Assembly: GCA_947034885.2 (NCBI GenBank)
Contig: OX344754.2
Coordinates: 22,462,501 to 22,526,500, forward strand
Origin: Thuidium tamariscinum
Taxonomy: Eukaryota > Streptophyta > Bryopsida > Hypnales > Thuidiaceae
DNA length: 64,000 bases
Direction: 5' to 3'
The notes below the pieces were generated by a model. The model made no database searches and had not been told where the DNA came from. It saw only the letters and a program-made list of their open reading frames with translations. This document shows, one piece after another, positions 4,553-64,000 of the stretch. The stretch's first letter is position 1; every line of letters begins with the position of its first letter. Position numbers and translations under genes: made by a program.

Positions 4553-7500
4553 TTAGGAACTTGGAGCTTTGACATGTGGAAGGATTTTCCAACTTTTGGT
4601 CATATCTCTCAATTCTGGAAAAATTGAATTAGGATGCTGATAGCGCCTCTCCACAAAACTATAGTAAATATTTCCAGCAATAAGAGCTTTGATATCTTGC
4701 AAATGGTTTTGTAAAGTAGAGTTCCAAGCTTGAGATTCTAAATCCAAGATTGTATGAGCATATGTATTCACCAATCCTATGGCCATATGGATTGCTTGGA
4801 CAAAAGGCCTCCCTTCATGTTCCATTAGAATGGTAATCAAATTGCGAGGATTCTCTTCAAATAAGATCTCTTTGTGATATGAAAAGACATCATTTGCTAA
4901 TCCAAGATGGATAGAAGTTGCCATGGTTACATTTTCCAAGTATGGACTCATCTTCAATGTGCTTGGAATGTAGGAATTGTTGGCAAACTCTATAGTCAAC
5001 TGAGCAAAGTTCCCACCAAAATTTCCAGCACGCATAATAGTATATGATTGTAAGTCTTGGAAGCACAAGTTCCGGCCTTGAAGAATATCTGCATGGCTAG
5101 CAACACTTATGCGATTAGATTCCACAATGCCTGAGACATATTGATTGAACCATTCAGGGTTGGACAACTCCAACATGTCCCGTCCTGACTCCCACATCAT
5201 GGTCTCAATCAAGGGAGCAGGATTGCTTAGTTGCACTTGTTGACTGAATACTCCATTTATGTGGTTGAGATATTCTTGAATTTTTTCAGGGCTTTGACGG
5301 GTACATTGGCTAATGCCATACAGGTCTTGAAGAGACTCATTTGGAGTGTCGAAAAGAAGATCATCCAACAAGAAATGTAGTGCATAATTGATGGAAATTG
5401 CTACAAGACGATAGAGGTCAACTACGCTAGGGTACAAGTAGCTTGCTATACAAAGGCCTACATGACAATAGGAGTCCAAAGATTTGACATTATGATAGCG
5501 CTTGACATATTGTTGCAAGCATTTTTCAGCCTCATGAACATACTTGGATTGTTGCAAAGGTGGGAGCCCATCAATGATCATAGAAAGTAATGGTGGAAGT
5601 TGGTCATTAATAGTAGATGGATGCTTGGCTATTGAAATTTGATGCATGAGCTTGGGAGTGTTGATCCCTGAACAAAACAAGATATTTGGGTCTTTAGAAT
5701 TGATTCAAAATAAGAAGAGTGATTAATTACATATTCTTAAATGAAGGATAGATGTTTTTCAGTTTTATCATGTCTTGTTTCTATTATGAAATATTCTTGG
5801 CAAGACAATAGAAAATATGACATACACCTTGCTAGGCATCATGGAGGCCAAACTACTCCATCGCAAGATAATGGTCTACTTTGGTGATGAAGAAGTAGTT
5901 TATCTTTTGTTATATTTTTCATATCTAGAAAAAAAATTGGATGAATTTTGGATGAAAACAAGTCAACATGCTTGAATATGACTTCAAAGTGATTTACAAT
6001 TTTAAATTTTGATGAATGCAAAAATATATTACTTCATCAAGATGTAAATGATTTTCCATCTTCAATTGTTCTTTTCTCAAAAATGAAAGAAAAATGGCTA
6101 TGTACAACAATGTTAAAATTAAGATGGTCATAGTTGTTGAATGAATTTCCTTAAGGACCAAGAGATAATCTATGTATTTCAAGTTGTTAAGATATATTAT
6201 AGAGTGCAACTTGAAAGAATTTCTAAATGCCATGAATTTTTTTTTGAATTGCAAAGCATGATTTACAATACATATCTTTGCAATTAGATTTACTATTGCA
6301 TTTAAGAATGTTTATAATTAAGATTTTGAATCAAAAACTCAAATTTTTTGTTTCCAATGAATTATAAAATTGAACAATAATGATTTCTACATTACGCTTA
6401 TCTTTCAATTTTTAAGACTTTAATTTCACTTCTTTATATGAGTTGTATTTGGTTGGTCGTTTATTGAACTCAAAATGATTTACTTTTTGAAATGAAGCAT
6501 AATAGTACACTTTAAAATATAGAATATATACACAACAAGAAAATCATATGTTGCAATTGCTTTAGAAGTAACACAAAAATCTAGAAAGAATTAGATGGAT
6601 GAAAATTTCAAAGTGTTGTGCATATAGGACATATTTTTATCCATCCATTATTCACTCTATGTTTTTGAGGGAGTCATAAAATGACTTGTGTTTTTAGTTC
6701 CAAGTGTGTTTAGAACTCAAAACTTTGTGTTGAGTATAGATCCAACTCTTCAACTAAACTTTTGCCAATTTATTAGCAACATCATTTTCAATAATTTTGG
6801 GGTAAAATTAGAATGAAGCCTAAACATGATACCTTTTATTGTTCTTAGTAATACTCTTGAACTTCACCAAACATTATGTTTCAATTCCCGTATTTAGTCA
6901 TTTTTCAACACACTCCTACTCTAATTATTGCCTCCATTTCCATTAGAATTTGAAATTTTCTTTAACTTTTACCCATTCTTTATCATATTTCTAGTTTAAA
7001 AGCACTCAATCAATTTCTTTTTCCCTTTCTCACCAATTCACAATATGCTAACTACGAATTCTTGTGCGACTATTGGCTTTGAGGTGCAAGCATACATAGT
7101 TACATACAAAGATTGAAAGATGTCAAAGTATTTGAAAGTCCTAGTAAAGGACCCCCTCTCGTCTATATTGTACTCCATAGTGTACAATGCCCTCACAAAC
7201 TAATTGCATCCCCACTCACCCTTTTACAAAGAGGAGGTAAGCTTAGTGCACTCTAAGGTCCATGGGTACACCCAAAAGCACCACTTATTCATACTACGCC
7301 TAGTTATTGTGATTAGGCTGTTCAAATTTTCATACACTTTTGTTGGCAAGTGAAAGCATGTTCCAACACACCAAAGAATACAACATTTGGATACAACATG
7401 CAAAAGTTTCTAAAGGTCAAAGTTTGTTTCCAAAAGCACCATCTACAGTCTGCATACATCACTGATATTGGAAGTGTACACTGATTGTAGATGGCGCTTT

Positions 7501-8156
7501 TAGGAATGGTGCACTTTTGGGTGTACCTACCTTATTTAGTCTTGGAGGGCACTGAAAGTGAAACTATAGGATGCACGCATTGAAAAGGTGTGAGATATCT
7601 CAGCCTGTGTCAATACCAAATGGAAGTCGGCCCATTTATTTACACTCAAAATTATACTAATGGTGTACATTCAAGTTGTGAAATGTGCACTACTAGAATA
7701 ATTCTGCCCCTGGATGGGCTGGTTCAGGCTCCCATTTTGCTGGTCATCGGCTCAGTTACCTTACTTTGGATCATTCTGTCCCTTTCATTCTTTGTAGAAA
7801 TTTGGTCAAAATTTTGCTTGAAAATCAAGGGCAAGGGTTGGAGGCTTACCAGTAAAATTGCGCAAACTCCCAGCATCCTTCACATGGACTCTGCCATCAG
7901 ATGCATCAATACTGCAGGAGGAGAAAGACAAGGCTTGCTTCGAACATGAGGCTTGCTTTGAAGTTGAGCCTTGCTTCGAAGATGAGGCTTGCTTTGTAGC
8001 CGAGCTGCTGCCACCGTTTTCCAAGCCACTCGACCATTTGCAAGCAGCTTGTCCGAGTTTCCTTGAGGAGGAAAGGGAGACTGGGGACTTTACGCAAGTT
8101 CCCAGCAGTGGGAGACGAGGGGAAAAGGCACAAACCGTCTGCATGGAAATCATCAT
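4553..8156 (-). CDS. Terpene synthase gene 1 (microbial-type class I), two exons, intact
   Basis: Exon 1 is 8156-7850 (307 nt), exon 2 is 5667-4553 (1115 nt). The donor is CTG|GTAAGC and the acceptor TTGTTCAG|GG. Phase 1 plus 2 rebuilds a Gly codon and gives 473 residues. Class I terpene synthases ionise a prenyl diphosphate with Mg2+. The metal-binding motif DDLLFD is at residues 204-209 and NDVFSYHKE, an NSE triad (N361, S365, E369), follows. Arg315 lies 46 residues before the triad, where the pyrophosphate sensor is expected, and an Arg-Tyr pair is at 444-445. There is a single alpha domain, with no beta/gamma domains or DXDD motif. The first ~100 residues are rich in Ser, Lys and Gln with few acids early on, like a plastid or mitochondrial transit peptide. 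Start: the first ATG of an ATGATG pair conserved in genes 2, 3 and 5. Substrate and product cannot be read from sequence. The MTPSL assignment is from motif knowledge, not a search. Confidence 0.88.
5668..7849 (-). other. Intron of terpene synthase gene 1, contains a family A MITE
   Basis: 2182 nt, GT-AG. It has diverged little from the introns of genes 2 and 3 outside insertions. The block GATTATCTCTTGGTCCTTAA (complement here, near 6150) recurs in gene 2 and, more distantly, in gene 4 near 52150, so the intron is ancestral. A family A MITE sits at 7256-7532. Short open frames inside it are not genes. Confidence 0.8.
7256..7532. mobile_element. TA-flanked MITE, family A, in gene 1 intron
   Basis: TA flanks at 7254-7255 and 7533-7534. 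The right end reads CACTTTTGGGTGTACCTACCT; the left end has drifted (AGGTCCATGGGTACACCC). Gene 2 carries the same insertion (22867), while gene 3 has the uninterrupted target near 29149 (CCACATAGAGTGCACTAAGC). The insertion therefore predates the gene 1/gene 2 split and postdates the split from gene 3, unless it was excised from gene 3. Confidence 0.85.
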
Positions 8157-8470: not shown

Positions 8471-8582
8471 GATGCATTCCAGTGACTACCTTCACCTGCA
8501 TGCATTTCTCGTGCTCATTTTGGGGCAGAGAAATGAGCACGAGAAATGCATGAAAGTAAACTGAAGGTAGTCACTGGAATGC
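8471..8582. repeat. Long promoter hairpin upstream of gene 1
   Basis: GCATTCCAGTGACTACCTTC pairs with GAAGGTAGTCACTGGAATGC, and inside it GCATTTCTCGTGCTCATTT pairs with AAATGAGCACGAGAAATGC. It is a near-perfect stem of roughly 50 bp with a small loop. It begins about 315 bp upstream of the gene 1 ATG. The counterpart before gene 2 is at 21812-21924; gene 3 retains only fragments. Flanks show no clear target duplication. Confidence 0.85.
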
Positions 8583-8826: not shown

Positions 8827-9138
8827 ATATGCCAAATTTCATTAAAATGATGGTATTCCTTATGCCATTTTTCAGACCGCGTGGTCTGAACTGAAAATTG
8901 ACATCTAGGAATGGTATAAATTTCAAATATTTAGGACAAATGTAGATTTTCAAAATATATGACAAGTTTAGATTCCAAACTGCGTGGTCTGAAACATCTT
9001 GGACAAGTGCAGATTTTAGACATCTACAACACATGTAGATTTCAAAAATCTATGATTCTTTTAGATTTCAGACCGCGCGGTCTGAACTATCAAAAATGTC
9101 AAACTAATGGAATACCGCCATCTTTAACAAAATTCGCC
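8827..9138. mobile_element. Insertion carrying three GACCGCGYGGTC palindromes, upstream of gene 1
   Basis: Gene 2 (near 21530) lacks this ~310-bp block: there the upstream sequence runs straight through GAAATAGATATCTCCATA. Ends are imperfect inverted repeats (ATATATGCCAAATTTCATTA and its counterpart ending in CGCCATATAT). Inside are palindromes at 8871-8890 (TTCAGACCGCGTGGTCTGAA), 8973-8993 (degenerate) and 9067-9086 (TTCAGACCGCGCGGTCTGAA). They are about 100 bp apart. Confidence 0.65.
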
Positions 9139-21778: not shown

Positions 21779-21884
21779 CACGTGTTCATTTCTCTGTGTT
21801 GATTTTTTGGCATTCCAGTGACTCCCTTCAGTTTACCTTCATGCATTTCTCGTGCTCATTTCTCTGCCCCAAAATGAGCACGTG
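21779..21884. promoter_or_regulatory. Two G-boxes upstream of gene 2
   Basis: CACGTG occurs at 21779-21784 and 21879-21884, the second inside the hairpin arm. They lie ~370-480 bp upstream of the gene 2 ATG. Regulatory meaning is inference. Confidence 0.4.
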
Positions 21885-21924
21885 AAATGCATGAAGGTAA
21901 ACTGAAGGAAGTCACTGGAATGCA
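21812..21924. repeat. Long promoter hairpin upstream of gene 2
   Basis: GCATTCCAGTGACTCCCTTC pairs with GAAGGAAGTCACTGGAATGC and the adjoining AGTTTACCTTCATGCATTTC pairs with GAAATGCATGAAGGTAAACT. The mismatch position (CTCCC here, CTACC before gene 1) is matched on the opposite arm in both copies, so the two arms have changed together. Confidence 0.88.
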
Positions 21925-22254: not shown

Positions 22255-25142
22255 ATGATGATTTCCACGCAGACGATTTCCCTTCGTCTCCCACTGCTGG
22301 GAACTTGCCTAAAGTCCCTGGTCTCTCTTTCCTCCGCGAGGAGACAAGCTGCTCGCAAATGGTCGAGTGGCTTGGAAAACGGTGGCAGCAGCTCGGCTAC
22401 GATGCAAGCCTCGTCTTCGAAGCAAGGCTCGACTTCAAAGCAAGCGTCGTCTTTCTCCTCCGGCAGTGACGATGCATCTGATGGTGGAGTCCATATAAAG
22501 GATGCTGGGAGTTTGAGGGACTTTACTGGTAAGCCTCCAACCATTCAATCAGCAAGCCCTTAAGCTTACATTCTGCTGGTGAGCCCTTGATTTTCAAGTA
22601 AAATTTTGACCAAATTTCTACAAAGAATGAAATGGACAGAATGATCCAAAGGTGCCTGAGCCTATGACCAGCAAAATGGAACCGGAGCCAGCCCATCCTG
22701 GGCAGAATTATTCTAGTAGTGCACATTTCAGAACTTGAATGTACACCATTAGTATAATTTTGAGTGTGAATAAATGGGTTGGCTCCCATTTTGTATTGCC
22801 ACAGGCTGAGATATGTCACACCTTGCATCCTATAGTTTAACTTTCAGTGCCCTCCAAGACCAAGTAAGGTAGGTACTAGGTACACCCAAAAGTGCACCGT
22901 TTCTAACAAAGCCATCTACAATCAATGTACATTTCCAAAATTAGTGATGTGTGCAGAGTGTAAATGGCGCTTCTGGAAACAAACTTTGACCCTTAATAAC
23001 TTTGAATCCATACTGGACACAAAGTTTTGAGTTCTAAACACTTTCGGAACTAAAAAAACAAGTCATTTTGTGACTCCCTCTAAAACATAGAGTGAATAAT
23101 GAATGGATAAAAATATGTCCTATATGCACAACACTTTGAATTTTTCATCCATCTAATTCTTTCTAGATTCTTGTGTTACTTCTAAAGCAATTGCAACATA
23201 TGATTTTCTTGTTGTGTATATACTCTATATTTCAAAGTGTACAATTATGCTTCATTTCAAAAAGTAAATCATTTTGAGTTCAATAAATGACCTACCAAAC
23301 ACAACTCATTTAAAGAAATGAAATTAAAGTCTTAAAAATTTGAAGGATAAGCGTCATGTAGAAATCATTATTGTTCAATTATCTACAATTCATTGAAAAC
23401 AAAAAATTTGAGTTTTTAATTCAAAATCTTAGTTATAAACATTCTTAAACGCAATAGTAAATCTAATTGCAAAGATATGTATTATAAATTGTGCTTTGCA
23501 ATTTAAAAAAAAATTCATGGCATTTAAAAATTCTTTCAAGTTGCACTCTATAATATATCTTCACAACTTGAAATACATAGATTATCTCTTGGTCCTTAAG
23601 GAAATTCATTCAACAACTATGACCATCTTTTTAACATTGGTGTACATAGCCATTTTTCTTTCATTTTTTATATGGAAATCATTTATATCTTGATGAAGTA
23701 ATATATTTTTGCATTCATCAAATTTTTAAACTGTAAATCACTTTGAAGTCATATTCAAGCATGTTGACTTGTTTTCATCCAAAATTCATCCAATTTTCTT
23801 TCTAGATATGAAAAATATACAACAAAAGGTAAACTACTTCTTCATCACCAAAGTAGACCATTATTTTGCAATGGAGTAGTTTGGCCTCCATAGTACCTAG
23901 CAAATTGTATGTCATATTTTCTATTGTCTTGTCAAGAATCCTTCTACTCAAAACAAGGGATGAAAAAATTGAAAAACATCTATCCTTCATTTAAGAATAT
24001 GCAATTAATCACTCTTCTTATTTTGAATCAATTCTAAAGACCCAAATATCTTGTTTTGTTCAGGGATCAACACTCCAAAGTTCATGCATCAAATTTCAAT
24101 AGCCAAATGTTCATCCACTATTAATGACCAACTTCCACCATTACTTTCTATGATCATTGATGGGCTCCCACCTTTGCAACAATCCAAGTATGTTCATGAG
24201 GCTGAAAAATGCTTGCAACAATATGTCAAGCGCTATCATAATGTCAAATCTTTGGACTCCTATTGTCATTTAGGCCTTCGTATAGCAAGCTACTTGTACC
24301 CTGGAGTAGTTGACCTCCATCGTCTTGTAGCAATTTCCATCAATTATGCACTACATTTCGTGTTGGATGATCTTCTTTTCGACACTCCAAACGAGTCTCT
24401 TCAAGACCAGTATGGCATTAGCCAATGTACCCGTCAAAGCCCCGAAAAAATTCAAGAATATCTCAACCACGTAAATGCACTATTCAGTCAACAAGTGCAA
24501 CCCAGCAATTCTGCTCCCTTGATTGAGACCATGATGTGGGAGTCAGGATGGGACATGTTGGAGTTGTCCAACCCTGAATGGTTCAATCAATATGTCTTGG
24601 GCATTGTAGAATCTAATCGCATAAGTGTTGCTAGCCATGCAGATATTCTTCAAGGCCGAAACTTGAACTTCCGAGACTTACAATCATATACTATTATGCG
24701 TGCTGGAAATTTTGGTGGAAACTTTGCTCAGTTGACTATAGAATTTGTCAATAATTCCTACATTCCAAGTACATTGAGGACAAGTCCGTACTTGGAAAAT
24801 GTAACCAAGGCAACTTCTATCCATCTTGGATTAGCAAATGATGTCTTTTCATACCACAAGGAGATCTTATTTGAAGAAAATCCTCGCAATTTGATTACCA
24901 TTTTGATGGAACGTGAAGGGAGGCCTTTTGTCCAAGCAATCCATACGGCGATAGGATTGGTGAATAAATATGCTCATACAATCTTGGATTTAGAATCTCA
25001 AGCTTGGAACTCTACCTTACGAAATCATTTGCAAGATATCAAAGCTCTCATTGCTGGAAATATCTACTATAGTTTTGTGGAGAGGCGCTATCGGCATCCT
25101 AATTCAATTTTTCCAGAATTGAGAGATATGACCAATAGCTAG
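22255..25142 (+). CDS. Terpene synthase gene 2 (class I), two exons, C-terminally shortened
   Basis: Exon 1 is 22255-22528 (274 nt), exon 2 is 24064-25142. The same phase-1 junction rebuilds Gly, giving 450 residues. The catalytic exon differs from gene 1 at about 27 of ~359 aligned residues by my count. DDLLFD is at 193-198, the NSE triad NDVFSYHKE starts at N350, the sensor Arg is 304 and the Arg-Tyr pair is at 433-434, so all catalytic motifs are kept. Gene 1 continues MTKSWKILPHV after the last shared residue; here the Trp codon is TAG (25140-25142), so about 12 residues are lost. That tail follows the Arg-Tyr pair, so the enzyme may still fold. The first exon is Ser-rich and transit-peptide-like, with fewer SKQ-type repeats than gene 1 (11 codons shorter). 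Function is known only to the class level. Confidence 0.85.
22529..24063 (+). other. Intron of gene 2, with truncated family A MITE
   Basis: 1535 nt, GTAAGC...TTCAG. The left half of a family A MITE is at 22867-23004; the other half and the following DNA seen in gene 1 (about 6730-7400) are missing, which accounts for most of the length difference from the gene 1 intron. Confidence 0.8.
22867..23004. mobile_element. Truncated family A MITE in gene 2 intron
   Basis: It begins AGGTAGGTACTAGGTACACC with a six-base duplication in the terminus, preceded by TA. Similarity stops after CCTTAATAACTTTG at 23004, where the sequence jumps to DNA equivalent to ~6730 in S1. This is a deletion after insertion. 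Confidence 0.8.
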
Positions 25143-27843: not shown

Positions 27844-28829
27844 TATCTCCATATTGTAACTTTATTGTAACTTTACTATTGTGGTTATTTTAAGTCCAGG
27901 TGGCTGGGTCTGATTGCTCAAAAGTGACAAATTGGGCCACATTCAAGCTTGGTGTTTTTAGGCCACACTCTACGTCCATGTCATGATGTTTCTTTGTCAG
28001 GTCAGTAAATTGACAGTCCCAATAACCATACAGGCAAGTGGCGGCGATCCACTCCAGAGCAAATTGCAAAAGCTTCTTTTTGTTTACAGTCATTTCTCTG
28101 CCAAAAAATGAACACCAAGAAGAAATGCATGAACGTGAAGGTAGTCATTGGAATATGCACAGTATTTCAGAGATTGCTTCCACCAGTACGTCGTCATAGC
28201 AACAATCCCTGCCCACTGGCTTTCTGCGACTATAACTTAAGTGAGTGTGGCCTCAAAAATCAAAAGACCTGCTTTGTTGCTCCTTAGTCTGTTTCGACAG
28301 GCCAGACTGTTAACCTCTAAAGGAGCAAGTGTGCAAGAAACAGTGTTGCAGAAGCCACCTGATGCTGTTACAGTCCTTTGAGGGTCAAGTTAAGTGAGCA
28401 AGAGACAGCACACATTTAAGGCTTGTGCATTCCTGGTGAGGTCCAGTTTAGAATGATGATTTCAACGCAGACAATTTGCCCTCCTCTAGTCCTCTCCCAC
28501 TGCTGGGAACTTGCATAAAGCCCCCGGTCTCTCTTTCCCTCTCCAGGAGACTCAGACAAGCTGATTGCAAATGGTCGAGCGGCTTGCAAAACGGTAGCAG
28601 CAGCTCGGCTACGAAGCAAGCCTCATCTACGAAGCAAAGCATCGTCTTTCTCCTCCGGCAGTGACGATGCATCTGATGGTGGAGTCCATGTGAAGGATCC
28701 TGGGAGTTTGAGGGACTTTACTGGTGAGCCTCCAACCATTCAATCAGCAAGCCCTTGATTTTCAAGCAAAATTTTGATCAAACTTCTACAAAGAATGAAA
28801 TGGACAGAATGATCCAAAGTAAAGTAACT

Positions 28830-29041: not shown

Positions 29042-30678
29042 GTAAATAAATGGGTTGGCTCCCATTTTGTATTGCCCACACGCTTAGATACCTCACACCT
29101 TTTCAGTGTGTGCATCCTGTAGTTTCACTTTCAGTGCCCTCCTAGACCACATAGAGTGCACTAAGCTTACCTCCTCTTTGTAAAAGGATGAGTGGGGAAG
29201 TAATCAGTTTGTGAGGGCACTATACACTACCGAGTATAATACGGGGGAGGGGGTCCTTTACTGGGACTTTCAAATACTTATGAGATGTTTGTAACTTTGT
29301 ATAAATGCTTAAAACTCAAAGTCAATAGTCACGCAATGATTGGTAGTTAGCATATTGTGAATTGGTGAGAATAGGAAAAAGAAGTTAGTTGAGTGTTTTT
29401 ATACTAGTAATATGATAAAGAGTAGGTAAAAGTTCAAGAAAATTTCAAATTCTTATGTAAATGGAGGCAATAATTTGAGTAGGTGTGTATGTGTAAAAAT
29501 GACTAAATATGGGAATTGAAACATAGTGGTTGGTGAAGTTCAAGAGTATTACTAAGAGCAATAAAACGTATCATATTTAGGCTTCATTCTAATTTCACCC
29601 CCAAATGATTGAAAATGGTGTTGCCAATAAATTGGCAAAATTTAGATGAAAAGTTGGATCTATACTCAACACAAAGTTTTGAGTTCTAAAAACACTTGGA
29701 ACTAAACAACAAGTCATTTTATGACTCCCTCAAGGACATAAAGTGAATAATAGATGGATAGAAATATGTCCTATGCACACAACACCTTGAATTTTTCATC
29801 CATCTAATTCTTTCTACATTCTTGTGTTACTTCTGAAGCATTTGCAACATATGTGATTTTCTCGTTGTCTATATACTCTATATTTCAAAGTGTACAATCA
29901 TGCTTCATTTCAAAAAAAGTAAATCATTTTGAGTTCAATATATGACCAACCAAACACAACTTATATAAAGAAATGAAATTAAAGACTTAAAAATTTGAAG
30001 GCTATTTAAGCGTAATGTAAAAAATCATTACTGTTTAATCTACAATTCATAAAAAACAAATGTTTAGTTTTTGATTCAAAATCTTAGTTACTAACATTCT
30101 TAAATGCAATAGTAAATCTAATTGCAAAGATATGTATTATAAATCATGCATCCTTCATTTAAAAACATGCAATTAATCAGTCTTCTTGTTTTGAATCAAT
30201 TCTAAGGACCCAAATCCAAATATCTTGTTTTGTTCAGGGATCAACACTTCAAAGCTCATGGATCAAATTTCAATAGCCAAACGTTCATCCGCTATTAATG
30301 AACAACTTCCACCATTACTTTCTATGATCATTGATGGACTCCCACCTTTGCAACAATCTGAGTATATTCACTAGGTCGAAAAATGTTTGCAACAATATGT
30401 CAAGTGCTATTATAATGTCAAATCCTTAGACTCCTATTGTCATGTAGGCCTTTGTATAGCAAGCTACTTGTTCCCTAGAGTAGTTGACCTCCATCGTCTT
30501 GGAGTAATTTCCATCAATTATGCACTACATTTCTTGTTGAATGATCTTTTTTTCAACACTCTAAACCAGTCTCTTCAAGATCAATATGGCATTAGCCAAT
30601 GTACCTGTTAAAGCCTCAAAAAAATTCAAGAATATCTCAACCACCTAAATGCACTATTAAGTCAACAATTGCAACCAA

Positions 30679-31739
30679 GTGAATTCAAGAAACACTTAAA
30701 GCCATTTGGCACACCTAAGTTTTTGATTTGTTTTTGGCCATAACTTATGTGTTTTAGCTCCAAATGACTCAAAATTTATAGGGTAGCTACTCATAGCTAT
30801 TATGTATTTATATTGAATTTTGGAGATTTTTCAAAAATAATTTATTATTTTCAAATAGCCCCGAAAATTTCTCATAGTACTTGAATTAGGGTTTTTTGCA
30901 TTGTTTTTCTCCAAAAAAACAAATTTTGACCTAAAATTTGGAGAAGATGGTTTCTTAGTAAACTTATAGCTACTGTCCAAAGAAGTTCTAAAAATACTTA
31001 TTTTTATGTGTTGTAGAAGTCTACAGAAAGAGCTTTATTCAGCATTTTTTTCCAAAAGTACAAAATATTATTTTGGTGAGTTTTTTTGTCAAATCTCATC
31101 AACAAAAAGTCTTATCAAATGACCAATTTTGGTATTTTTCAAAAATGATACAATATTTTTTATAAAGTAAAATGTCACAAGTTGTATTTTCTTCACCGGA
31201 ATTCTATGTGGATTCTATGTCCAAAGTTCTGGTGAAGAAAATACAACTTGTGACATTTTAATTTGTAAGAAATTAAAAAATTGAAATAAAAAAAATTTTG
31301 AAATCTTTTTTTGGTGATGGGAGTGGACTAAAAAACTCACCAAAATAATGTTTTATACCTTTGGAAAAAAATGCAAAATGAAGCTCTCTCTATGGACTCC
31401 TACAACACATAAAAATAAGTATTTTTAGTATTCCTTTAGATAGTAGCTATAAGTCTACTAAGAGACCATCTTCTCCAATTTGAAGGTCAAAATTCGTTTT
31501 TTTGGAGAAAAACCATGCAAAAAACCCTAATTCAAGTATTATGAGAAATTTTCGGGGCTATTTGAAAATAATAAATTATTTTTGAAAAATCTCCAAATTT
31601 CAATATAAATACATAATAGCTATGAGTAGCTACCCTATAAATTTCGAGTCATTTGGAGCTAAAACACAAAATTTATAGTTCAGAAAACTAAGGTGTGACA
31701 AAACGCAACAAATAGTACAAGTGTTTTGTGAATTCACCC
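30679..31739. mobile_element. ~1.06-kb foldback element in pseudogene 3 exon 2
   Basis: Two ~500-bp arms are near-complements of each other around a small centre (near 31205). Left outer end GTGAATTCAAGAAACACTT, right outer end GTGTTTTGTGAATTCACCC. It splits the codons between GTGCAACC and TTCCCTTGATTGAG of genes 1/2. A clean target duplication was not readable. Relative at 42184-43275. Confidence 0.85.
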
Positions 31740-31869
31740 AACCCATCGATCATGTTCCCTTGATTGAGACCATGATGTGGGAGTCAGGACAAGACATGTT
31801 GGAGTTGTTCAACCTTGAATGGTTCAATCAATATGTCTCAGGCATTGTAGAACCTAATCGCAGAAGTGT

Positions 31870-32158
31870 CTCGGTGGATAAACTCCCAATGCAGTAGAAA
31901 ATGGTGTGAGATAAAAAATAGGTTCAATTTAATTTGGTGGAAGAAAAATTTATATTTCTTTTATATCTACTATACCATTGATAATATTCAATTTAGGATT
32001 TTATTTCTAAAATAGGGTGTTGTAAAATATCCTTTAGCAGGTTTTTTTCTAAAATAGGGAGTGAAAAAATACTTGAAAGAAAAAAAAAATACCCCTCCTA
32101 TTAAATACCTCGTTATCGCACGTGGTTTTAAATTGAAAAGGGGAGTTTACTCCCCAAG
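31870..32158. mobile_element. 289-bp MITE in pseudogene 3, 8-bp target duplication
   Basis: It starts CTCGGTGGATAAACTCCC, ends GGGAGTTTACTCCCCAAG (imperfect inverted repeats), and is flanked by AGAAGTGT and ATAAGTGT, where the intact genes have a single ATAAGTGT. An 8-bp duplication points to a hAT-type element. Confidence 0.8.
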
Positions 32159-32930
32159 ATAAGTGTTTCTAGCCATGCAGATATTCTTCAAGGCCTGAAC
32201 TTCCAAGACTTACAATCATATACTATTATGCGTGCTGGAAATTTTGGTGGGAACTTTGCTCACTTGACTATAGTGTTTGCCAACAATTCCTACATTCCAA
32301 GGACATTGAAGATGAGTCCACACTTGGAAAATGTAATTATGGCAACTTCTATCCATCTTGGATTAGCAAATGATGTCTTTTCATACCACAAGGAGATCTT
32401 ATTTGAACAGAATCCTCGCAATTTGATTACCATTCTAATGGAACATGAAGGGAAGCCTTTTGTCCAAGCAATCCATATGGCAATAGGATTGGTGAATAAA
32501 TATGCTCATGCAATCTTGGATTAAGAATCTAAAACTTGGAATTCTGGTTAACAAAATCATTTGCAAGATATCAAAGCTCTCATTGTTGGAAATATCTACT
32601 ATAGTTTTGTAGAGAGGCGCTATCGGCATCCTAATTCAATTTTTCCAGAATTGAGAGATATGACCAAAAGCTGGAAAATCCTTCCACATGTTGAAGGTCC
32701 AAGTCCCTTTTTTTTTCCTTGCTATGTTGTTGGTGTCAATTTCATTGTATACTTTCATTACCTTTAATTCCTATAAGGAATAGGACATTGTCTCTAAAAA
32801 AGAAGAATAGTAATGATGATGAACTATGAATTTGTCTTTGGATTATGCTTTGAATTTATGTTTCAATAATACTTCACTTTGAAACCATAATGTGATTTTC
32901 TATCATTGATTGGATAGAAGATTGTATTGT

Positions 32931-51070: not shown

Positions 51071-53708
51071 ATGGCCCAAGCATTGTCTTCCTTCTCTCGT
51101 GCTGATGTTGCATCTCATGTTCAAGTCCCTGCCAAGGATGCCGGCGTGCAGGCTTCCATTGGTAAGCCTCCAACCCATTGATCAGCCAGTCCTTGTTTTT
51201 ATTTGGACAAATGCTTAATACAGTAGTACCTCTCCAACTCAAGTAGGTCTGGGACCAGTCCAACAACATTGAATTTATTACCTAATGCAGGGTCAATTTT
51301 AGTCATAAGCTTTGTGTAATGTGGCTCAGTCCATGATCCATCTGATAACATTGATTTACAAAGGTTTGTAGGCTTACAGAGGGTCAAGGTAGGGAGGTTA
51401 AGTTATACTTTTTGAGGGGAACATGCCAAAAAGACATACAGTCCATGGAAATTGTCCTTTGTTAAAAATAAAAAAAAACATACAGTATTCTCGGTGCATT
51501 CCAGCAGTTTCATTTGCGATTGGTAGTGCTTGTTATTGCGTATCCAGAGGGCTGTGCCGTGCCCTCCCATTAGACTGCCGAAAGGGAGAAGCCTGAAGCA
51601 GTTGATTTGGGAGTGCACTGGGCAGAGCAGGGAGTTCTGCTCTTGGAATTTTTTCTGGGCAATTTGCTGATTTTTATTTACTAAACTCATGGATGATTTT
51701 CATTGATTTTTGTGGATTCCCTCAAATGCAGGCTTTGTGCTTGCAATAGCTTCAGATAGTTTCTACTTAACTTACTGCTGAACAGTTTATGCCTCAACAG
51801 TTTCAGTCCAGACTCACATAGCATGCATTTATGATGTGTACACATCAGAGCCCATGTAAGGGTAGTGTCCATTGGCAGTATAATTGTTAGCATATTGCAA
51901 ACTCATGAAAGTGTGAAAAATACTACTGTGGTATTCAATATTGACTTAAATTTAAGTAGAATGACCAGTTTTCGGTAGAGAATCTGAAAATTGAATATGG
52001 TAAGTGTTGTCAGTAGTAAAACCAACCTGAGTGTCTGATATGTTCTATGAATCATGTTTTGTAACTTTCAAGAAAGCCACCATTTAGTTGTTCCTCTCAG
52101 TTGCATTCTATAATACATCTTCACAATACTAGATATTTGAGTTACCTCTTGGTCCTTAAGTTGAGCACCTCTAACTATGCATCTCAAAAATATCTTATAT
52201 GTTTCTTTGTTTCATTGTTGTAATGTTGTCAACTAAATTCATCAACCTTCAAAATAGCAAATCACTTTGACGTCATATTTATAATGGTTGTTTTCATCCA
52301 AAATTCATTTGGACAATTTTTTGAGGTTTGACAAAACAATTGCAAAAAATGTTGTTCATAACCACCAAAGTAGATATTGTACAATAGTGCATTTTGTATT
52401 CCTAGGCGTCTAGTTGAAAACAACCATGAATAGATGTTCTATTAACTTGTCAAGAATCTTTCATAATAAAAAGAAGTGACAATAAAATCTTGGAATATTC
52501 ATCATTTACTAAAGAACATGAGATTAATCACTCCTTTTGTTTTGAGTCAATTCTAAAGATCCTAATTCATATTGGACTTGACTTGTTCAGAGACCAAGGT
52601 TGTGGAGTTCATGGATCCAATTTCACCAACCAAACATGTGTCCACAATTGATGATCAACTTCCTTCTTTGCTGTCAATGGCCATTGATGGCCTACCACCT
52701 TTGCAACAAGCCAAATATCTAGATGAGGCTGAAAAACGCTTATACCAACAATATGTTGAGCGCTATCCAAATGTCACTTCTATGAGGTCATATTGTCGTG
52801 CAGGACTTTCCATAGCAAGCTACTTGCATCCCGGAGTAATAAGCCTTGATCGTCTTGTAGCGATTTCCTTTAGTTATACGTTGTTGTTCATGGTGGATGA
52901 TCAATTTTTCGACACCCGAGACAAGTTTTGTCAAGACGAGTTTGGCATTACCCAAAGTGCATGTGGAAGCCTCCAAAACATTCAGAAATATCTTCACCAC
53001 TTGGATGGAGTTTTCAGTCAACAAGTGCAGCTAAGCAAATCTTCTCCGTTGATTGAGACCCTCATGTGGGAGTCCGGACGGGACATGTTGGAGTTGTCAA
53101 ATCGTGAATGGTTCAATCGTTATGTTGCAGCTGTTGTTGAACACCACCATTCTGGTATAGCTAGCCATGCAGATTTTGTCCAAGGCTTTAACCCATCCTT
53201 AAATGACTTGGAATCATATACTATTATGCGTGCTGCAAATGTTGGTGGGAAATTTGTTCAACTGGCGATAGAGTTTACCAAAGATTCATACATTCCAAGT
53301 GAACTGAGGGCAACTCCATACTTTGAAAAGGTAACCACAACGGCTTCCATCCATATTGGATTTGCAAATGATATTTGTTCATACCACAAGGAGAGCTTGA
53401 TAGAACAAAACCCTCGCAATTTGATTACTGTGCTGATGAAGCTTAAAGGGAAGCCTTTTGTCGAGACATTGTATATGGCAATAGAGTTGACGAACACATA
53501 TGCTCGTGCATTCATGGATTTGGAGGCTAAAGCTTGGAATTCTACTTTGCGAAATCACTTCCAAGATGTCAAAGATCTTGTGGGTGGAAGTCTTTACTTT
53601 GGTGTCATGGACGATCGCTATCGACAGGCTGATTCAATATTTCCTGAATTAAGAGATGTGACTACTAGTTGGAAAATCCATCCTCATACCAAAGGGATAG
53701 AGGTCTAA
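51071..53708 (+). CDS. Terpene synthase gene 4 (class I), two exons, intact, short first exon
   Basis: Exon 1 is 51071-51161 (91 nt), exon 2 is 52591-53708 (1118 nt). Donor TTG|GTAAGCCTCC, acceptor TTGTTCAG|AG. Phase 1 plus 2 rebuilds a Glu codon and gives 402 residues. The metal motif is DDQFFD at 133-138; the NSE triad NDICSYHKE has N290, S294, E298; Arg244 is 46 residues before it; the Arg-Tyr pair is at 373-374. The fold is a single alpha domain. It is a clearly diverged paralogue of genes 1-3 and retains WESGRDMLELS, NPRNLIT and IFPELRD. The N-terminus, MAQALSSFSRADVASHVQVP, aligns with the last third of the gene 1/2 first exon, and the Ser/Lys-rich extension is absent, so a cytosolic enzyme is likely. 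Start: the first ATG after a plausible TATA box, also used by the 46950 relic. Product unknown. Confidence 0.9.
51162..52590 (+). other. Intron of gene 4
   Basis: 1429 nt, GT-AG. The 3' third (from about 52095) aligns with introns of genes 1-3 (TCTATAATACATCTTCACAA, CTCTTGGTCCTTAAG). The 5' part, about 51200-52080, does not, so part of the intron has been replaced. Open frames on the minus strand here are not supported. Confidence 0.75.
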
Positions 53709-61427: not shown

Positions 61428-62919
61428 TAGGGGATCAAGTACAAAAACTGCTTCGTTGTTCTGTTATTTTCATAAGTCAGTACATCCGTTAGCAGGAGAT
61501 CGAGCACAAGTTCAAGGCTTTGTTATATTCGCCGTCACTGAGACTCACCTCACTTCGTGATCTTCATGAGCCAGTCCGTTGGCACGGGAGCACCCATGGC
61601 AAGGCTCTGCCAAATTCCCGGTGAGGTCCCCCACTCCAGAATGATGATTTCTTCGCGAACGATTTAATTTGTATGAGTTCCTCTCGGATCCCACAGCCGG
61701 GAACTCTCATTAAGTCCTTGATCTCGCTTTCCCCCTGGAAGAGACGAGCAGGTCTCAAGTGGTCGATCGAGTGGCTTTCAAAAGGCCCGAGGTCACAACA
61801 CCTGGGCCACAAAGCAAGCGTCGCCTTTCTCCTCCAGTCCTGAGGATGCATCTGATGAAGAAGTCCCTGTGGAGGATGCTGTTGTGTGTGATTTTACTGG
61901 TAAGCCTCCAACCCTTGGATCAGCAAACCCTAGCTTGATTTTCAAGCAAAATTCTGCCCAAAATTCTACGCAAAATTTGATGGAAAGGATGATTCAAAAC
62001 AAAAACTTCTCAGTGCGCACATTCTGCAGTTTAACTCTCAATGTGCAGCTCATGTTGTTGCGCATCCAGCATTGTTTGCGAGGGCATTGTGCAGTACAGT
62101 ACAGTACAGGGGGTTTCCCATATTGGGACTTCTCCGGGTAATTTTGATCGTTCACTTGTGTGTGCTTGCAAGCAATCCATCAACTTAAGGCTTCAGTTGT
62201 TGATCAGGTGTCTGGTTTTAAGTTAATTTTGAAGACCCAAATGTTGAATTTGTCTTACTCAGGGATGAAGACCGTGGAGTCTATCGATCCAATTTCACTT
62301 GCTGAACTTGTATACATAGATGATGATCAAGAACTGCCGTTGCTCTCGATAATCATTGACGACCTCCCGCCTTTGCAACAATCCAAATTTGTACGCGAGG
62401 ATAAACAACGCTTGCACCAGGCTCTTTGTATGGGAAGGGAAAGGGGGAGGAGAGGAGTTTGTCGGGCGCTATCAAAACATCACTTCATTGGACTCCTATT
62501 GTCGTGCAGGGCTTTTTGCAGCAAGCTACATGTATTCTAGAGTAATCGACCTCATCATCTTGTAGCAATTTCCATTAATTATATATTACTATTCTTGTTA
62601 AATGATCTTAGCTTTTTTTGACACCATGATTATGAATTTTTTTCTTTCTTACCTCAATGCTTGTGGAAGTTCCAAAACATTTTGAGAATATTTTGACCAT
62701 TTGGATGCAATTTTTAGTCAACAAGAGCAAACAAACAATCCCATTCCCTTGATTGAAACCTTGATGTGGGAGTCTAGAAAAGACATGTTGGAGTTTCCCA
62801 ACCTAAATGGTTCAATAATTATGTTGTAGGTCTTTTCGAACACCACTATTATGGTGCTAATATCCATGAATATATTATTGAAGGCCATAAGTCATGCTTT
62901 CAAGACTTAAAATCATATC

Positions 62920-63460
62920 CGTGGAGTGCTACGACATTCACTTTGTGGACGGCGTACTGATTGAAATCCACATTTCTTTCTCATTATAAATTGGATGAAA
63001 GTCATCTTCATTTTTAAAAATATTTTATGAAGTTGTGGTCCTATACAAAGATTGAATTTGGTATTACTAGAGCACCTATTTTTTTTAAATTATAAATGTG
63101 GAAGTATGTCAAGTGGTTGACTTGGATTGACTCTAATTCAAACCTAGAATTGTAAAGAGTATAAAAATTCAAAAAAATCACCATATCAAGATAACTTCCT
63201 TTCCAACAAAATTTACTCAAAAAATGACAATATTTTGCTTGTTATTGAATTTACAATGAATTAAAAAAATTTCCTTTCAAAATTTATAGAAATATATTGG
63301 TGATAGAATTGGAAAATCTAACCATATGGATAGAATCTAAAAGTCAAAGTCTACAACTTTTATTTGTTTCTCAAGTCCAAAATATACTTTCCAATAGTTC
63401 TTTATCATAATCTTTCTGGAATCATCAATTTTGGAGATGAATCCAAATACTTAGGGGATA
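62920..63460. mobile_element. ~540-bp insertion in pseudogene 5
   Basis: Homology to genes 1-4 stops after GACTTAAAATCATAT and resumes at ATCTATGCTAGGAACATTGG. The inserted stretch, opening CCGTGGAGTGCTACGACA, has no match elsewhere in the window and no clear inverted ends. Confidence 0.55.
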
Positions 63461-63578
63461 TATAATTATCTATGCTAGGAACATTGGAGGGAAATTTAAT
63501 AAGTTGGCAATAGAGTTTACAAACGATTCCTACATTCCAAGTATATTGAAGACAAATCCATACTTAGAAAGTGTAACA

Positions 63579-63862
63579 TTAGGAGGGATTTGAGGGCTCC
63601 AAAGGGCCGTTTTGGGACTATTTCTAAAATTGGTCTGTGGAACGGCTGGCCGCTATTAGGCCAGCATTTCTCACCCAAAAAAAAAATTGGATCCTGAAAT
63701 ATGAAAAAAAGTCCAATTTTTTTTCCAAAAAAAACAAGAGTTAATGACGTGGCAGTCGCTCGACCAAGTAGGATTCTTATAGAACTGCATTCCCGCGACA
63801 GATTACACAATTTCGGGCTGTGGGAACTCGTGGGCTCCTAGAGCCCTCAAAATCTCTCCTAA
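63579..63862. mobile_element. 284-bp MITE in pseudogene 5
   Basis: The left end TTAGGAGGGATTTGAGGGCT pairs with the right end AGCCCTCAAAATCTCTCCTAA. It interrupts the sequence equivalent to GTAACCATGGCAACTTC of gene 1. A TTA/TAA target is possible but cannot be settled. A partial copy forms bases 1-137. Confidence 0.85.
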
Positions 63863-64000
63863 TGCCATGACAACTTCCATTCATCCGATGTCTTCTCACA
63901 CTAATAGTTTACCTCAATAGAAGAAAATCCTTGCAATTTAATCACCAAGTTGATGGAATGTAAAAAGAAACCTTTTGTTCAAACATTGCAAATGGCAATA

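Follow-up and report, generated by a model that had tools for sequence, protein, structure and literature searches.

Where does a terpene synthase begin when its long catalytic frame is entered through a 3' splice site? This question is raised by a group of microbial-type terpene synthase genes of Thuidium tamariscinum, located in a stretch of 64,000 nucleotides (C6:22462501-22526500, called the window hereafter) within a genome of which 363,211,507 bases on 19 contigs were searched. According to the initial annotation of the window, the catalytic exon is preceded by a separate exon resembling an organelle transit peptide. The point is of consequence, since the location of a terpene synthase decides which precursor pool is accessible to it. 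The reading favored here, with a probability of about 0.77, is that the spliced exon 1 of genes 1 and 2 would give a plastid-targeted synthase, the targeting segment being absent from gene 4.

The layout of the five loci of the window is collected in Table 1. In gene 1, an ATG-started frame ends in phase 1 at ...AATTTTACTG/GTAAGCCTCC (ACTG/GTAAGCC) and the catalytic frame is entered through TTGTTCAG/GGATCAAC at 5667; the joined exons form an open frame of 473 aa with its stop at 4553. The exon predicted by the initial annotation was recovered exactly (7850..8156), together with its phase-1 end and its in-frame junction. The corresponding joins yield open frames of 450 aa in gene 2, the catalytic part of which is 12 residues shorter than that of gene 1, and of 402 aa in gene 4. 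The earlier statement that the intact loci 1, 2 and 4 all join in frame is therefore correct for the three junctions but not for the integrity of gene 2, since its TAG codon at 25140-25142 replaces a Trp-Lys found at the same place in 19 of the 20 family catalytic exons; the catalytic part of this gene may be impaired. Both genes 1 and 2 have an in-frame stop 14 codons 5' of the ATG, without any intervening in-frame Met. Because an intron of 1.4-2.2 kb separates the catalytic exon from the N-terminal exon in genes 1, 2 and 4, domain-based annotation could miss the targeting part of loci of this type.

Table 1. Exons, introns and exon remnants of the five terpene synthase loci (window coordinates)
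Feature	Position	Strand	Remarks
Gene 1 exon 1	7850..8156	(-)	307 nt = 102 codons + 1 base; long transit-peptide-like N-terminus
Gene 1 phase-1 intron	5668..7849	(-)	2182 nt; bounds GTAAGCCTCC...TTGTTCAG
Gene 1 exon 2	4553..5667	(-)	PF19086 terpene synthase domain; DDLLFD and NDVFSYHKE motifs
Gene 2 exon 1	22255..22528	(+)	91 codons + 1 base; long class
Gene 2 phase-1 intron	22529..24063	(+)	1535 nt
Gene 2 exon 2	24064..25142	(+)	Stops at TAG 25140-25142; TGG (Trp) in other members
Gene 3 (pseudogene) exon 1	28453..28723	(+)	Long class, broken frame
Gene 3 exon 2 remnants	30238..32704	(+)	Contain stops; two inserts with inverted-repeat bounds
Gene 4 exon 1	51071..51161	(+)	30 codons + 1 base; short class, without transit-peptide-like segment
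Gene 4 phase-1 intron	51162..52590	(+)	1429 nt
Gene 4 exon 2	52591..53708	(+)	PF19086 terpene synthase domain; DDQFFD and NDICSYHKE motifs
Gene 5 (pseudogene) exon 1	61641..61899	(+)	Long class, broken frame, conserved donor
Gene 5 exon 2 remnants	62263..64000	(+)	Frame broken, inserts; extends past window end

Genes 3 and 5, though broken, still display a long exon 1 and its donor. The catalytic exon of gene 3 carries inserts at 30679-31737 and 31869-32159, bounded by 19-nt inverted repeats that are 89% and 79% complementary respectively, and the first of them contains additional internal arms of 380 nt (90% complementary). Two inserts are also present in the catalytic exon of gene 5, at ~62918-63450 and 63580-63880 as deduced from the gaps between matches; related inverted sequence is apparent by eye at both ends of the second one, where a repeat search at 16 nt found no inverted repeat. 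Upstream of exon 1, a hairpin-forming inverted repeat occupies 8474-8582 in gene 1 and 21810-21923 in gene 2, as seen from the gene 1 flank, which matches itself and the gene 2 flank in inverted orientation. A small inverted-repeat element with a ATGGCGGTATTCC-like start (~8870-9120) recurs by eye near family members, including upstream of two loci located elsewhere in the genome, L022 and L027. The scans of the window for Rfam families (gathering threshold) and for tRNAs gave zero matches.

The catalytic exons of genes 1, 2 and 4 match the Pfam family PF19086 with scores of 58.8, 57.1 and 66.0 bits respectively (cut-off 23.7), and no other Pfam family was found in them at E <= 0.001. The DDxxxD, NDxxSxxxE and RY motifs are present in each of the 20 near-full-length catalytic exons of the genome. 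PF19086 combined with DDxxxD and NDxxSxxxE is the signature of the MTPSL enzymes found in non-seed plants. Among sequences of solved structures, the best match of the gene 1 catalytic exon is PDB 8h6q, a presilphiperfolan-8-beta-ol synthase which is presumably fungal (E 2.6e-7). This microbial class I sesquiterpene synthase is distant, and its chain of 366 residues has no N-terminal extension like that of genes 1 and 2. An AlphaFold2 model based on a three-row alignment of catalytic exons reached a mean pLDDT of 33 and was rejected as a basis for structural claims. When prokaryote genomes were searched with the catalytic alignment, 77 stretches matched the pattern and none was confirmed as a relative. 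The chlorophyll a/b-binding family gave 49 matches in the moss genome. For one of these proteins, which matches chains of land-plant type in the PDB, the top row was a multi-domain chain, 9vfj_2, and the best single-domain chains were 7xqp_a and 8htu_U (350.6 and 349.9 bits, a lead of 1-2 bits only), both of which are taken to be moss proteins.

With the catalytic exon of gene 4 as query, at least 36 matches were obtained in the genome, 20 of them near full length; a second query from another subgroup returned at least 35 matches including the same 20, both counts being lower bounds. Eighteen of these 20 copies are free of internal stops, gene 2 and L017 having one each. Thirteen copies lie within 348 kb of C6, window included, and the seven others are dispersed on C1, C3, C4, C5 (twice), C9 and, at 20.68 Mb, C6. 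The acceptor occupies the same conserved position as in genes 1, 2 and 4 in 16 copies. The remaining four (L022, L024, L026 and L027) are apparently intronless, start at MEP or MES and form a single group in the family tree (support 100/100), which was built without the partial copies and fragments (L023, L025, L028-L035, genes 3 and 5). An in-frame N-terminal extension considered for L022 was rejected: by eye, it sits in an inserted repeat like the ~8870-9120 element. For L013 and L021, the start was placed at an inner Met homologous to the others, earlier in-frame Mets existing in both. In L021 (G000:C4:13208910-13209980 (-)), the catalytic exon opens with tandem QLEDPLPPVLS repeats that duplicate the conserved DQLPPLLS segment.

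An exon 1 was identified for 15 of the 16 acceptor-bearing loci, so that one intron is inferred in 15 loci and apparently zero in four. Eight of these exons are long (genes 1 and 2, L009, L013, L016, L017, L020, L021) and seven are short, with 27-30 residues (gene 4, L007, L008, L014, L015, L018, L019). The exon 1 of L011 was not found within 4.4 kb upstream; this locus is 91% identical to L013 from ~36 bp 5' of the acceptor onward, and further upstream the two do not match. The exon 1 of L013 itself matches only itself and the exon 1 of gene 5 in the genome. In 363 Mb, the donor 15-mer GGTAAGCCTCCAACC has eight occurrences, each at an exon-1 donor of this MTPSL-like family, the reversed-pattern control giving 0 forward and 1 reverse occurrence; the remaining exon-1 loci have variants of this donor. 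The short-class copies L018 and L019 encode identical proteins in opposite orientation (G000:C6:22335444-22336529 (-) and 22352592-22353677 (+)), a situation which, on these two grounds, suggests a recent inverted duplication inside the cluster.

The coding nature of exon 1 was assessed by the conservation of its register in plain DNA alignments of seven long loci, the atypical L013 being left out. Of the 5046 exon 1 bases aligned over 21 pairs, 4777 (94.7%) keep the register. The pairs are not independent, and the seven loci, which include two close pairs (genes 1/2 and L017/L020), represent about five independent lineages. For the same pairs, the figures are 1464/4214 (34.7%) over the initial 260 nt of the intron and 1410/3423 (41.2%) in the 200 nt of 5' flank, these controls being anchored at one end and exon 1 at both, which biases the comparison toward exon 1. 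A fairer control is provided by the broken genes 3 and 5, the exon 1 lengths of which are also 1 modulo 3: the register falls there to 42-46% and 57-64% respectively (four comparisons each). Gaps that are multiples of three amount to 105 out of 178 in exon 1, 115 out of 404 in the intron and 93 out of 298 in the flank. Between genes 1 and 2, exon 1 differs by three indels of 9, 6 and 18 nt, and a single indel out of 12 is a multiple of three in the alignable intron.

The dN/dS ratios (NG86) were rejected as proof of coding, being weak in most pairs, and the register test and the off-frame composition were used instead. Between genes 1 and 2, exon 1 has an omega of 0.40, with permutation fractions of 0.048 and 0.044. 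It ranges from 0.40 to 1.34 among the 28 long-long pairs and from 0.20 to 1.35 among the 15 short-short pairs, with a permutation fraction below 0.05 in 8 and 2 pairs respectively. Amino-acid constraint on exon 1 is weak. Taken together, these data designate exon 1 as a predicted coding segment that evolves fast. Residues that change rapidly in a frame that is nevertheless held match the expectation for a targeting peptide.

The composition of this segment points in the same direction. Only 3 acidic residues are found among the 360 residues that make up the first 45 positions of the eight long copies; the two off-frames contain 21/352 and 44/352, and exon 2 roughly 10-14%. The same 45 residues include 3-7 Lys/Arg and 13-27% Ser/Thr, and the first acidic residue is located at position 41 or beyond in seven of the eight copies. 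L013 is again atypical, with 2 acidic and 3 basic residues. Several long copies have in common the elements M-x-S-x-Q-T, P-R-x-P-Q-x-G, an Arg-rich stretch and S-S-G. Further on, exon 1 continues as a linker rich in Ser, Lys and Gln, in which genes 1 and 2 carry SKQAS-like units in tandem. A crude composition filter let through 6 of the 188 Met-starting frames of the window, only two of which belong to genes 1 and 2, as well as 24 of 1585 windows of 40 residues; since the four other frames are not these genes, composition was not accepted on its own as demonstrating a transit peptide. In combination with the register, composition distinguishes genes 1 and 2, which have a transit-peptide-like N-terminus before the domain, from gene 4, which has none. 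In its sequence, exon 1 of genes 1 and 2 is thus transit-peptide-like, as had been claimed, and six more loci of the long class were found in the genome, including L017, whose catalytic exon contains a stop, and L013, of unusual composition. The claim does not extend to the whole family, in view of the 7 of 15 loci with a short exon (gene 4 included), of L011, where exon 1 was not found, and of the four apparently intronless copies.

Other interpretations of exon 1 have to be weighed against plastid targeting. Were it a non-coding leader, or no exon at all, translation would start at a Met of the catalytic exon and the enzyme would be cytosolic. A shorter protein of this type may be made from the 7 of 16 two-exon loci, genes 1, 2 and 4 among them, in which residue 7 of exon 2 is Met, near the translation start (MEP/MES) of the four apparently intronless loci. 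However, a leader of this kind does not account for a register that exon 1 keeps, that its flanks do not keep and that has mostly disappeared from the broken loci, nor for acidic residues being avoided in the reading frame only. Moreover, at 6 of the 16 two-exon loci exon 2 lacks a Met within its first 25 residues, and no usable Met lies near the start of this exon in L008, L015 and L021, where the first one is residue 77, 39 and 55 respectively, with DDxxxD at 101, 101 and 127. L008 therefore needs an upstream coding exon, and a transcript starting just 5' of exon 2 could hardly provide a whole enzyme at any of these three loci. On this evidence, a non-coding exon 1 is very improbable. The Met at residue 7 also bears on the idea that each gene delivers two products, a plastid form from the exon-1 promoter and a cytosolic form arising from an intron promoter or from leaky initiation at this Met. 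Even if genes 1 and 2, L013 and L016 combine it with a long exon 1, 9 of the 16 two-exon loci have another residue there (V, I, K or L), so this Met is not generally maintained, and dual production appears unlikely.

If exon 1 is translated, its function may still differ from plastid import. A disordered linker devoid of targeting function would agree with the fast evolution of the segment, with the low-complexity SKQAS-like repeat of genes 1 and 2 and with its absence from the short class. It would leave unexplained the late first acidic residue of seven of the eight long copies and the P-R-x-P-Q-x-G, Arg-rich and S-S segments common to long copies on three contigs, which makes this function quite improbable. 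Acid-poor N-termini containing Arg and Lys are common to mitochondrial and plastid signals, so exon 1 could also address the protein to the mitochondrion, or to both organelles. Neither of these destinations is considered probable. The relatives PcISPS and LjISPS have putative chloroplast transit peptides, and isoprene emission by Polytrichum commune needs the plastid MEP pathway, according to PMC13098426.

The favored reading, plastid targeting of the products of genes 1 and 2, can be described as follows. A nuclear transcript would start upstream of exon 1, and removal of one phase-1 intron would join 91-102 N-terminal codons to the complete class I synthase domain of exon 2. In the resulting protein, the first ~45 residues would serve as a chloroplast transit peptide and be cleaved off, the Ser/Lys/Gln-rich linker would come next, and the enzyme would be delivered to the plastid, the site of MEP-pathway prenyl diphosphate synthesis and of its presumed substrate. 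Gene 4 and its short-exon relatives, deprived of the targeting segment, would more likely be cytosolic. Should the products of genes 1 and 2 reside in the plastid and that of gene 4 in the cytosol, this cluster of near relatives would constitute a natural test of the effect of relocation on terpene output, and would also reveal a route from a microbe-derived gene to a plastid enzyme.

The coexistence of three gene structures raises the question of their origin. The short exon 1 aligns with the tail of the long exon, the short start codon being opposite a codon inside this tail (ATC in L009), and upstream alignments of long and short loci share blocks such as CCAGTC as well as, in some loci, the TATA box. 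This arrangement fits a targeting segment lost by internal deletion or, conversely, gained by insertion. Either direction is compatible with the tree, in which the deep forks among the two-exon loci are open. The Met at residue 7 of exon 2 may be read as a decayed ancestral start. A tentative scenario, given somewhat less than even odds, is that an intronless microbe-derived gene captured a 5' unit composed of a promoter, a transit-peptide exon and a phase-1 intron, upon which the start moved upstream and the old one decayed. At a later stage, some paralogs of the 348-kb cluster would have lost the transit peptide through an internal deletion of exon 1; their start would thereby have shifted to the exon tail and their enzymes returned to the cytosol, so that three states would now coexist. 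Both directions, intronless to two-exon and long to short, are inferred, since the tree has no external root.

Comparable enzymes have been described in other non-seed plants. MTPSL-type isoprene synthases with putative chloroplast transit peptides are reported in two mosses in PMC13098426 (2026): PcISPS (PcMTPSL1) of P. commune, with a putative transit peptide at residues 1-113 of 440 aa, and LjISPS (LjMTPSL1) of Leucobryum juniperoideum. A plastid location is predicted there by WoLF PSORT, and fosmidomycin blocks isoprene emission in P. commune. As described there, these enzymes resemble genes 1 and 2 in their single PF19086-type domain, their DDxxxD motif and their transit-peptide-like N-terminus. 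The search of the P. commune transcriptome in the same study yielded one MTPSL candidate, in contrast with the at least 20 near-full copies of the present genome. According to PMC11579073, the majority of MTPSL genes contain at most one intron, and SuMTPSL2, an amorphadiene-forming enzyme of the moss Sanionia uncinata described in this paper, has a gene with exactly one intron and consists of a single alpha domain, like the genes studied here; the words transit, plastid and chloroplast are absent from its main text. Eight SmMTPSL genes examined in Selaginella moellendorffii have principally zero or one intron, and their deduced proteins, with 323-372 aa, correspond approximately to the catalytic domain alone, in contrast with the 473 and 450 aa of genes 1 and 2 (PMC7826640). 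In open-licence PMC text, consisting mostly of titles and abstracts, neither a separate transit-peptide exon nor long and short variants of exon 1 were found for the MTPSL family. A transit peptide and a single intron are therefore not new in kind, both being on record in these articles, and the newer part is the mosaic of long, short and intronless forms among sister genes of one genome.
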